Below, piece after piece: positions 26,366 to 29,483 of a DNA stretch of 33,930 nucleotides. The notes under the pieces are model-generated. The model was not told the DNA's origin and made no database searches. It saw nothing but the letters and a program-made list of their open reading frames with translations. The translations under genes were made by a program, and so were the position numbers. This stretch comes from an uncultured bacterium (GTDB taxonomy: Bacteria; Armatimonadota; HRBIN16): the NCBI GenBank assembly GCA_937132045.1, contig CAKZNX010000386.1, forward strand, positions 1 to 33,930, in the 5' to 3' direction. How positions within the stretch are numbered: the stretch's first letter is position 1; each line of letters starts with the position of its first letter.

Positions 26366-27121
26366 ATGGCACAGCCGACCCGTGCAGAAGTGATGGAAGC
26401 CGAACTTCAGCGCATCATTCCCATCGTTATCTGGGGAGTGGTGGTGCTGCTTCTGGGGTTGTTCTTGCTGTACCTTTCCACTATTGCGGCGTGGATGCCG
26501 TTTTTCATCGGTGTAATCGTGACGATAGCGGGCGTGGGCATCGCGGGGTACGGCGGGTGGCAGTATATGCAGTTGAACAACATGCCCTCGTATCGCGCGC
26601 TGTGCCCTTACTGTAATCAACCAACGCTGTTCCTTGCTCCACCAGCGGAAGACTACACCTGCGAGCACTGCAAGCGTGTGGTAGCCATCGAGGGCGGACA
26701 GGTGGTGCCTCCGCTGGTGCTGGTGTGCCGGCATTGTGGCTCGCCCCAGAAGGTATCGCCTCGCGCGAGGATGTTCATCTGCGACAACTGCAACGGGCAG
26801 AACGACCTCAAGCCTGCCAAACCTGGCGTCGCTGCGGCAACCGCAGGAGCGGGCGAGGAGAGCATCGAGTACACCACCTACGACCTGGTGCTGGTGAACG
26901 CGGGACACGACACCGAAGAGGTGCTGGAAATCCTGTGCACCATCCTGGCGGCGCCGCGCGACCACTGCCGGGGTATCCTGAAAGACCTGCCGATGGTGAT
27001 TCTGGTAGACCTGCCCCGACGCAAGGCGGACTCGTACCGCCGGATGCTGCGTGAGGCAGGCGCTACCGTCGAAATACATCCCACAGGGCAGTATCGCCCA
27101 CCGGCGAAACAGGGGATGTAA
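26366..27121 (+). CDS. Two-TM membrane protein with double zinc-ribbon-like region and ribosomal protein L7/L12 C-terminal-like domain
   Basis: Two TM helices; CPYCN...CEHC and CRHCG...CDNC; TTYDLVLVNAGHDTEEVLEILCTILAAPRDHCRGILKDLPMVILVDLPRRKADSYRRMLREAGATVEI. Confidence 0.75.
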   Translation: MAQPTRAEVMEAELQRIIPIVIWGVVVLLLGLFLLYLSTIAAWMPFFIGVIVTIAGVGIAGYGGWQYMQLNNMPSYRALCPYCNQPTLFLAPPAEDYTCEHCKRVVAIEGGQVVPPLVLVCRHCGSPQKVSPRARMFICDNCNGQNDLKPAKPGVAAATAGAGEESIEYTTYDLVLVNAGHDTEEVLEILCTILAAPRDHCRGILKDLPMVILVDLPRRKADSYRRMLREAGATVEIHPTGQYRPPAKQGM

Positions 27122-27125
27122 AAAA

Positions 27126-27151
27126 GCCCCCTCCGGGTGCCGGAAGGGGGC
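27126..27151 (-). terminator. Terminator of the prepilin-like gene
   Basis: GCCCCCTCCGG/CCGGAAGGGGGC stem (one bulge) with a T-run on the minus strand. Confidence 0.8.
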
Positions 27152-27190: not shown

Positions 27191-27940
27191 CTAATCGCGG
27201 GTGAAGTGGGCGTCGGTCATCTGCGTCTGGCTCATGGCTTTGACATGTCCGTCGCAGAAGACCACGTTCGCCAGCCCGCGATGTTTTACCGTTTGGGTGG
27301 CTGAGTCCACATCCTTACGGTTGTCGACGTGCCTGAAGTCTACGGTAGGGTTGCCCCACCACATAGATGGCGGGTCGATGAAGGGCGTCTCCCACATGGT
27401 ACCGTCGCCGCCATACCACGGCACGTTGAAGAAGCCGCTATCGGCAAACATCACCTTCTCGGCAGGGCGCGATAGAGCACCCTCGCTGGCGGGGTTCTGC
27501 AGGTTGGGCCAGGTTCTCCAGTTGAAGGTAATGTAGATGTCCGAGCCGATATAGCCCCAGTTGTAGCCGTAGCCGTTGCCATCACCGAAACGGGTGCGTC
27601 CGCCCCAGCTGGAGCATCGCTGAATCTGCCCGTTCTTCATGTAGGGATAGAGCAGGCTCCCTGTCTTATCCCACACGTTGGGCGAGGTCTCCCGTCCGAA
27701 CCAGCACTGCCGCAGAGAGCCACTGTAGGCGTACTGCGCGATGGGGTAGGTCTCGTCGTAGTCCTGCAGGTACATCAGCGTGGCAAGACCCAGCTGCTTC
27801 ATGTTGCTCTGACAGCTTGCCTGTCGTGCCTTTTCGCGCGCCTGCGCGAAAACGGGGAAGAGGATGGCTGCCAGTATCGCGATAATCGCGATAACCACCA
27901 GCAGCTCAATCAGCGTGAAGGCGTTGCGTTTGGTTGGCAT
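27191..27940 (-). CDS. Prepilin-type N-terminal methylation / DUF1559 domain protein
   Basis: [60 protein letters not shown]-terminal [23 protein letters not shown] before ATG 27940. Confidence 0.93.
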
Positions 27941-28023
27941 GTTTCCCTCCTTACCAAAAAGTTCACCGCTCACGACGCGCGGAGGGAAACGTCGGAAGCG
28001 GTGTGTGCTTTCGGCGCGTCAAC

Positions 28024-28053
28024 AAAAAACCTGATGCCCTTCCGCACCAGGTT
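28024..28053 (-). terminator. Intrinsic terminator of the riboswitch expression platform
   Basis: Minus strand AACCTGGTGC-ggaagg-GCATCAGGTT followed by TTTT. Confidence 0.85.
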
Positions 28054-28136
28054 GGTTGACATGCGCCCGATTCACCTTCGGGTCACGTCCCCCTCCCTCC
28101 GCGAAGGGGTACCCTGCCTCAGGCAAGGAGTGACCA

Positions 28137-28256
28137 GCCGTCGCCGGGCATTCGGGCTCGTCCCCATTCCGGAGACACACCGTAGCGGGCCTGCGCCGGA
28201 TTCTCACCGGACTTCCCCCGATATTTCAGCTCCGATACGATCGGAGCGCAGACGGC
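28137..28256 (-). ncRNA. Cobalamin riboswitch aptamer
   Basis: Minus strand: P1 GCCGTC/GACGGC; conserved core GGGGGAAGTCCGGTGAGAATCCGGCGCAGGCCCGCTACGGTG; B12-box-like GAGCCCGAATGCCCGGC; hairpin GCTCCGAT-cgt-ATCGGAGC. Confidence 0.93.
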
Positions 28257-28278
28257 TTTCCCTATGCGATTTGGCTAC

Positions 28279-28307
28279 AGTTTATCAGACCCTTCAGTGG
28301 ATGTCAA
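28279..28307 (-). promoter_or_regulatory. Promoter of the riboswitch transcript
   Basis: Minus strand TTGACA-17 nt-TAAACT, just upstream of the aptamer. Confidence 0.8.
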
Positions 28308-28441: not shown

Positions 28442-28475
28442 GAGAGCATTCCTGCTCAAGGAGGCAAATACAACC

Positions 28476-29483
28476 ATGCCGAACGGTACCAAACGCCTGG
28501 ATGCGGTTTTCGAAGGTGGTGGCGTAAAGGGCACTGCGCTGGTTGGCGCGGTAGCCGTTACCCAGAACCTCGGTTACCAGTTTGTGAACCTTGCGGGCAC
28601 CTCGGCGGGAGCGATTGTGGCAGCCCTGCTCGCTGCAGGCTACACCGCAGAGGAGCTCAAGACGGTGATGGACGCCCTCGACTACAACCGCTTCAAAGAC
28701 GAGGGACTGGTGGATAAAATCCCCGTGTTTGGTCACCTGCTCAGCCTGGGTTTCGAGAAGGGCATCTACGAAGGGGCATACTTCGAGGGATGGATACGCG
28801 ACCTGCTGCAGGCAAAAGGGGTGCGCACCTTCGGCGATCTGGTGATGGAGGAGAGCAAGGACAATCCGCGCTACCGCTACAAAGTGCAGGTAATCGCCAC
28901 CGACATCTCTCGCGGAAAGATGCTGGTGCTGCCGCGCGACATCACCGACTATGGGCTGGACCCCGACAGGCTGGAGGTGGCGCGCGCGGTGCGGATGAGC
29001 ATGAGCATCCCCTTTTTCTTCGAGCCGGTGCTGCTGCACGACGTGAACGGCACACCGAGCTACATAGTGGACGGTGGCGTGCTGAGCAACTATCCCGTGT
29101 GGCTCTTCGACGATGGCACTCCCGACCCGCCGTGGCCCACCATAGGCTACAAGCTGGTGGAACCGAGCGAAGGCAAGCCGAACACGGTGCGCGGACCAAT
29201 TAGCCTCTTCGCGGCGCTGTTTGCCACGATGATGGAGGCACACGATGCGCGCTATATCCAGGACAGCAACTTTGTGCGAACGGTGCCCATTCCGACACTG
29301 GGCGTGCAGACCACGGAGTTCGACCTGTCCCCCGAGCGACGCGACGCCCTGTACCAGTCCGGTGTCAAAGTCGCGGAGGAGTTCTTCGCGCATTGGGACT
29401 TCGAAGGATATAAGCGCACCTACCGGCATGCGCCTGCTCCTCGCCGTCACGAGCGACTGTGGGAACAGACCGCACAGCCTTGA
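28476..29483 (+). CDS. Patatin-like phospholipase
   Basis: FEGGGVKGTALVGA oxyanion motif, GTSAG nucleophile, DGG catalytic Asp; RBS AAGGAGG before ATG 28476. Confidence 0.93.
   Translation: MPNGTKRLDAVFEGGGVKGTALVGAVAVTQNLGYQFVNLAGTSAGAIVAALLAAGYTAEELKTVMDALDYNRFKDEGLVDKIPVFGHLLSLGFEKGIYEGAYFEGWIRDLLQAKGVRTFGDLVMEESKDNPRYRYKVQVIATDISRGKMLVLPRDITDYGLDPDRLEVARAVRMSMSIPFFFEPVLLHDVNGTPSYIVDGGVLSNYPVWLFDDGTPDPPWPTIGYKLVEPSEGKPNTVRGPISLFAALFATMMEAHDARYIQDSNFVRTVPIPTLGVQTTEFDLSPERRDALYQSGVKVAEEFFAHWDFEGYKRTYRHAPAPRRHERLWEQTAQP

Follow-up and report, generated by a model that had tools for sequence, protein, structure and literature searches.

A cobalamin riboswitch linked to a DUF1559 type IV prepilin in Armatimonadota and a possible pilin-type part in B12 acquisition

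The riboswitch-prepilin unit

The window is the whole stretch of 33,930 nucleotides analyzed here, a contig from an uncultured bacterium of Armatimonadota (HRBIN16). A single transcription unit with one gene lies on its minus strand, made up of the following features:

28279..28307, minus strand: sigma-70-type promoter TTGACA-17-TAAACT with a TG extension (10/12 matches)
28137..28256, minus strand: cobalamin aptamer, closed by P1 (RF00174 and covariation; coordinates read from the sequence)
28256-28251 and 28142-28137, minus strand: P1 of the aptamer, GCCGTC/GACGGC
28247-28229, minus strand: P2 hairpin of the aptamer
28210-28196, minus strand: P5/L5 of the aptamer
28176-28160, minus strand: P6 extension of the aptamer
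28159-28143, minus strand: B12-box-like segment of the aptamer
28081..28135, minus strand: post-P1 hairpin GGTCAC...CCCCTTCGCGGAGGGAGG...GTGACC (from the alignment and relatives)
28022..28053, minus strand: intrinsic terminator before the gene (stem 28053-28028, then a T-run)
27945..27952, minus strand: ribosome-binding site AAGGAGGG (from the sequence; conserved in the genus alignment)
27191..27940, minus strand: DUF1559/H-X9-DG type IV prepilin, 249 aa, the sole gene of the unit (PF07963, PF07596, TIGR02532, TIGR04294)
27126..27151, minus strand: intrinsic terminator closing the unit

Elsewhere in the window, a divergent patatin-like phospholipase gene (28446-29483; PF01734, E = 9e-33) adjoins the riboswitch promoter, and two tRNA genes lie at the window start (198-279 and 303-375; Rfam 57.4 and 75.4 bits).

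The original prediction described a cobalamin aptamer with a closed P1 and a core, and named a covariance-model search as a check. Rfam cmscan of the whole window placed RF00174 at 28086-28265 on the minus strand with 36.9 bits (E = 5e-6), above the curated gathering score of 31.5, and RF00174 was the top family of its clan at the leader. P1 and the core were present and aligned in nine species of the genus, and the core was invariant among them. The nine leaders could be aligned over their full length, and promoter, core, post-P1 hairpin and terminator were kept in all of them. For covariation, 13 leaders were used: those of the nine genus species and four from members of two other families. 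Their consensus fold contained 46 pairs, 12 of which showed compensatory changes, and 564 of 582 cells paired; P1, P2 and P6 were among the covarying helices. The alignment indicates that the leader RNA is under selection. The full leader folded with a z-score of −2.95 and the isolated aptamer with only −0.85, so folding energy on its own was weak evidence.

The helix GGTCAC...GTGACC had been called an intermediate helix. The helix is present, but its likeliest identity is the P13/L13 kissing-loop regulatory hairpin. Such a hairpin is usual in the cobalamin riboswitch class, and equivalents were found in relatives from two other families. The 3' half of the Rfam alignment passes through this post-P1 hairpin, whereas the true aptamer closes at 28256-28137; this misplacement probably lowered the score in the window's genome. 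RF00174 scores in the genus were 33–45 bits, versus up to 126 bits elsewhere in the phylum, as would be expected if the leader were a cobalamin-riboswitch-like RNA that had drifted to another ligand or did not switch. However, prepilin-linked relatives reach 126 bits, and both the invariant core and the covarying helices argue against drift, which we consider very improbable.

The intrinsic terminator with its T-run provides an expression platform between aptamer and gene. It was kept in the nine species, and analogous terminators were read in four other genomes (G042, G052, G047 and G022). The order in relatives was likewise aptamer, hairpin, terminator and prepilin. The promoter motif was found once versus 0.4 expected in shuffles, and its TTGAC and TGATAnACT elements aligned across the nine genus members. 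Promoter and terminator thus stood as they had been described.

The prepilin matched PF07963, the class III signal, with E = 6.6e-9 and PF07596 with E = 8.8e-14, the latter over residues 33-71, which correspond to the start of the DUF1559 domain. The C-terminal H-X9-DG motif (TIGR04294) scored 20.7 bits against a cut-off of 19. The protein has a canonical pilin N-terminus, with a hydrophobic helix and an invariant glutamate, E12, at the +5 position. Orthologs in the genus were 90–96% identical. The next gene downstream (26366-27121) is convergent to the prepilin gene, and the unit is therefore monocistronic, in agreement with the predicted lone prepilin with its own ribosome-binding site and terminator.

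The AlphaFold2 model of the prepilin (mean pLDDT 68) has a long N-terminal helix and a small β domain; residues 176-216 are unresolved and much of the C-terminal half is of low confidence. Neither a B12-binding residue nor a B12-binding fold could be recognized in the prepilin. A fold search with the model placed type IV pilins on top at non-significant values (E = 0.2 at best) and so gave no information on a ligand. Apart from one marginal match (E = 0.07), the PDB sequence search returned just the N-termini of pilins. Neither search gave a match to a B12 binder. One prepilin subclade (L078, L076, L099, L100, L082, L071 and L070) carries a C-terminal EF-hand-like DxDxDGxxxTDELFDL after the H-X9-DG region.

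Linkage across Armatimonadota

The window's genome and 60 relatives from Armatimonadota, 61 genomes altogether, were compared. RF00174 matched in 57 of them, and the window's genome (3.5 Mb) contained a single match. The surroundings of 80 matches were taken for neighbor analysis. By motif search, a same-strand prepilin lay behind 50 of the 80, in 45 genomes. The prepilin of G032, 3.6 kb away, was excluded and G014, missed by the filter, was added, which again gave 45 genomes, at distances up to 1.3 kb. A DUF1559 prepilin was thus the first or near-first riboswitch gene in 45 of the 57 riboswitch-bearing genomes, at 49 loci.

On a wider scale, the riboswitch was found in 246 of 291 Armatimonadota genomes. 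We took the 42 further genomes that were strong in both riboswitch and subfamily listings (best rows). Among the matches listed, the best subfamily match lay 123–494 nt behind the riboswitch in 37 of the 42, and the mirrored upstream position was occupied in none.

DUF1559 prepilins are numerous; most genomes had at least about 44 matches scored. In a tree of 90 DUF1559 proteins, all 42 riboswitch-linked rows fell into one clade (SH-aLRT 98), which also held 10 unlinked rows; the other 38 unlinked paralogs fell outside it. The labels changed nine times on the tree, versus 30 times when shuffled, and none of 500 shuffles was as low. One of the 10 unlinked clade rows had a sub-threshold cobalamin match directly upstream. 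A scan of 40 paralog stretches for any Rfam riboswitch at gathering score gave none. The tree, the mirrored-position control and the paralog-stretch control ruled out that the riboswitch merely adjoins an abundant gene family by chance. As judged from the genomes compared, the linkage is genuine as well as old and specific, and the linked prepilins are one old subfamily.

The original prediction had named a recently deleted or moved B12 gene as a possible owner of the riboswitch, and the prepilin would then be a bystander. The window's unit does lack a B12 gene, with btuF/btuC at another place in the genome. Against this, leader and prepilin stay together in nine species of the genus and across the phylum, and the linked prepilins form a clade. 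At homologous loci in many genera, the first gene under riboswitch control is conserved, and it is the prepilin. A relic riboswitch was ruled out by this conserved synteny, and we give the idea almost no credence.

In 30 riboswitch loci from other phyla, a small sample, a DUF1559 prepilin was located within about 550 nt in four, all from Planctomycetota, so the pairing may reach past Armatimonadota. In these four (L281, L283, L284 and L291), the cobalamin riboswitch is followed by the prepilin. A scan with the subfamily alignment matched the generic prepilin N-terminus; its top-listed rows served the structure alignment and the outside-phylum test.

B12 genes, partner genes and pilus machinery

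CbiC, used as a single marker of corrin-ring synthesis, was found in none of the 61 genomes, and control genomes were positive. Armatimonadota apparently lack B12 synthesis. The window's genome encodes MetH (1376.8 bits, over the cut-off), a corrinoid protein, PduO and a BtuF/BtuC-type pair. These genes, together with the absence of CbiC, indicate an organism that makes use of B12 and seems to rely on taking it up. Its BtuF/BtuC genes (L147, G000:C214, 848-5421) lie behind a LacI-type regulator and a DUF1559 prepilin of another clade. A hidden riboswitch was looked for at this btuF locus, and none was found. The same order of LacI-type regulator, other-clade prepilin and BtuF/BtuC occurs in G005 (L150).

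Recognized partner genes were found downstream of the prepilin, on the same strand and within 4 kb, at 15 of the 49 linked loci, and on the opposite strand at none. They were mostly btuF/btuD/btuC or cobU/cobT/cobS. Ten of these 15 loci contained uptake or salvage genes, and five contained only two secreted families that recur behind riboswitches. Representatives of the downstream clusters were a BtuF-type binding protein, an ABC ATPase, a FecCD permease, a TonB receptor and a BtuG-like propeller. In several relatives the prepilin stands directly in front of BtuF. G060 has the riboswitch first, then PduO and then the prepilin. G059 has no riboswitch match, and its ortholog of the prepilin lies behind a gene for the B12 adenosyltransferase PduO; a search for a hidden riboswitch at that locus found none. 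The G059 arrangement is a linkage to B12 genes independent of the riboswitch. The genetic linkage to btu/cob genes was thus present in relatives and not in the window itself.

Secreted-looking proteins recur right behind cobalamin riboswitches, both at L123, L124, L110 and L111 (family f17) and at non-Armatimonadota loci (L292, L299, L303, L305 and L308). They had no Pfam match where tested and are candidate new B12-binding proteins.

Genomes with a riboswitch-linked BtuB rarely had a riboswitch-linked prepilin (3 of 11, versus 42 of 46 others; Fisher p = 4e-5 with kinship ignored, and 1.4e-4 with one genome of the window's own genus). The two were nearly exclusive. Among riboswitch-bearing genomes without a detected TonB plug domain, a set in which drafts can miss genes, 20 of 23 had the riboswitch-linked prepilin. 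The window's genome has one TonB-receptor gene, with no substrate assigned, away from the recognized B12 genes. In one species (G006; L148, 3891-6533), the riboswitch-prepilin unit directly adjoins a divergent TonB receptor gene, which has genes for a YfiR-like protein and a hybrid histidine kinase behind it.

The partner genes bear on whether the prepilin deals with B12 at all. The riboswitch could place a pilus or pseudopilus under B12 control in the service of adhesion, aggregation or movement toward neighboring cobamide producers, for example, with a prepilin that never touches B12. DUF1559 prepilins are not all tied to B12, and 34 of the 49 linked loci, the window's included, have no recognized partner gene behind the prepilin, both of which would fit. 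However, the partners that were recognized are mostly btuF/D/C, cobU/T/S and PduO rather than pilus or motility genes, and the linked prepilins are one old subfamily. We regard a purpose apart from B12 acquisition as unlikely.

The window's genome also encodes four PilC-type frames, PilB and PilT. A prepilin-peptidase-like ORF was recognized by eye; it had no NCBIfam match. These genes bear on a second possibility, that the prepilin is a membrane-anchored corrinoid binder whose prepilin signal serves export and anchoring only, with no filament. Its position directly before BtuF in several relatives is consistent with this, as are BtuG, BtuH and BtuJ of Bacteroides, which lie beside btuB, btuCD and btuF in riboswitch loci (PMC13398666, PMC6143338). 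The canonical N-terminus with E12, the long helix and the encoded assembly ATPases and PilC argue instead for assembly. We hold an anchored binder without a filament to be a tentative option. It is a version of the explanation that we prefer, not its opposite, and our confidence in the two overlaps.

Proposed role and comparison with known systems

We consider it likely that the unit encodes a B12-repressed prepilin that is made when B12 is scarce, is displayed by pilus machinery and serves corrinoid acquisition. From the observations above, we infer the OFF logic, surface display, filament assembly, and B12 binding or transfer. At high cellular B12, the riboswitch would stop transcription of the prepilin gene; at low B12, the terminator would be bypassed and the prepilin made. 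The OFF logic fits, since the same riboswitch class precedes the B12-independent isozymes MetE and NrdD in the phylum. The prepilin would then be cut by prepilin peptidase and displayed via the type IV pilus or type II machinery. Most likely it would act together with BtuF/BtuC as a capture part, located at the surface or spanning the periplasm. This would take place in a phylum without apparent corrin synthesis, in which a TonB-dependent BtuB under the riboswitch is often missing, and the prepilin perhaps stands in for BtuB. Several observations count against this reading: neither a B12-binding residue nor such a fold was recognized in the prepilin, the window's unit lacks a B12 gene and its genome's BtuF/BtuC genes showed no riboswitch, the same genome has a TonB-receptor gene, and ten unlinked rows share the prepilin clade.

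The original prediction had suggested, marked as inference, a surface structure or pseudopilus for corrinoid acquisition or under corrinoid regulation. This gained support, as the same prepilin heads riboswitch-controlled B12 uptake or salvage operons elsewhere. A function in B12 acquisition is well supported by association and unproven; B12 capture by the pilin and replacement of BtuB are hypotheses that the data allow. The boldest form, in which Armatimonadota and perhaps some Planctomycetota have a dedicated B12 pilus or pseudopilus whose DUF1559 pilin captures corrinoid, passes it to BtuF and replaces BtuB, is speculative and in our judgment somewhat doubtful.

The analysis points to an undescribed pilin-type part for B12 scavenging. 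DUF1559 prepilins form a large family with no known function and number in the dozens per genome in these bacteria; one of their subfamilies now has a testable role. The analysis also suggests a possible B12-gathering route for organisms without a riboswitch-linked BtuB, often without a detected TonB plug domain. Should pilins be able to act as capture parts for particular nutrients, further DUF1559 paralogs may do so for nutrients other than B12. In the open-licence literature, we found no papers on DUF1559 and B12, on a pilin under a cobalamin riboswitch or on cobalamin riboswitches of Armatimonadetes.

By PF07963, PF07596 and TIGR04294, the window's protein belongs to the DUF1559 (PF07596, SBP_bac_10) H-X9-DG prepilins, for which the Pfam entry gives no function. 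It differs from DUF1559 at large in belonging to a B12-riboswitch-linked subfamily with its own clade. Its leader shares the aptamer family and the terminator-type platform with RF00174 riboswitches elsewhere. The known targets of RF00174 are B12 uptake, salvage and B12-independent enzymes, and the genes behind it in this phylum also include btuB, btuF/C/D, cobT/U/S, metE and nrdD, whereas the window's target is a DUF1559 type IV prepilin.

The likeness to the ComG pseudopilus and type IV pili for DNA uptake is an analogy only. The common element would be a prepilin-based device that moves a scarce substrate toward a membrane transporter.

The nearest concept is found in Bacteroides, where riboswitch loci encode surface B12-binding lipoproteins beside btu genes (PMC6143338, PMC13398666). 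BtuG, BtuH and BtuJ (DUF4465) resemble the window's case: they are exported, are not transporters, and are encoded next to btu genes in B12-riboswitch loci of scavenging-dependent organisms (PMC6143338, PMC10404256, PMC13398666). No sequence shared between them and the prepilin was found. They are lipoproteins, differ in fold and act together with BtuB, whereas the window's protein is pilin-type and usually occurs without a riboswitch-linked BtuB.
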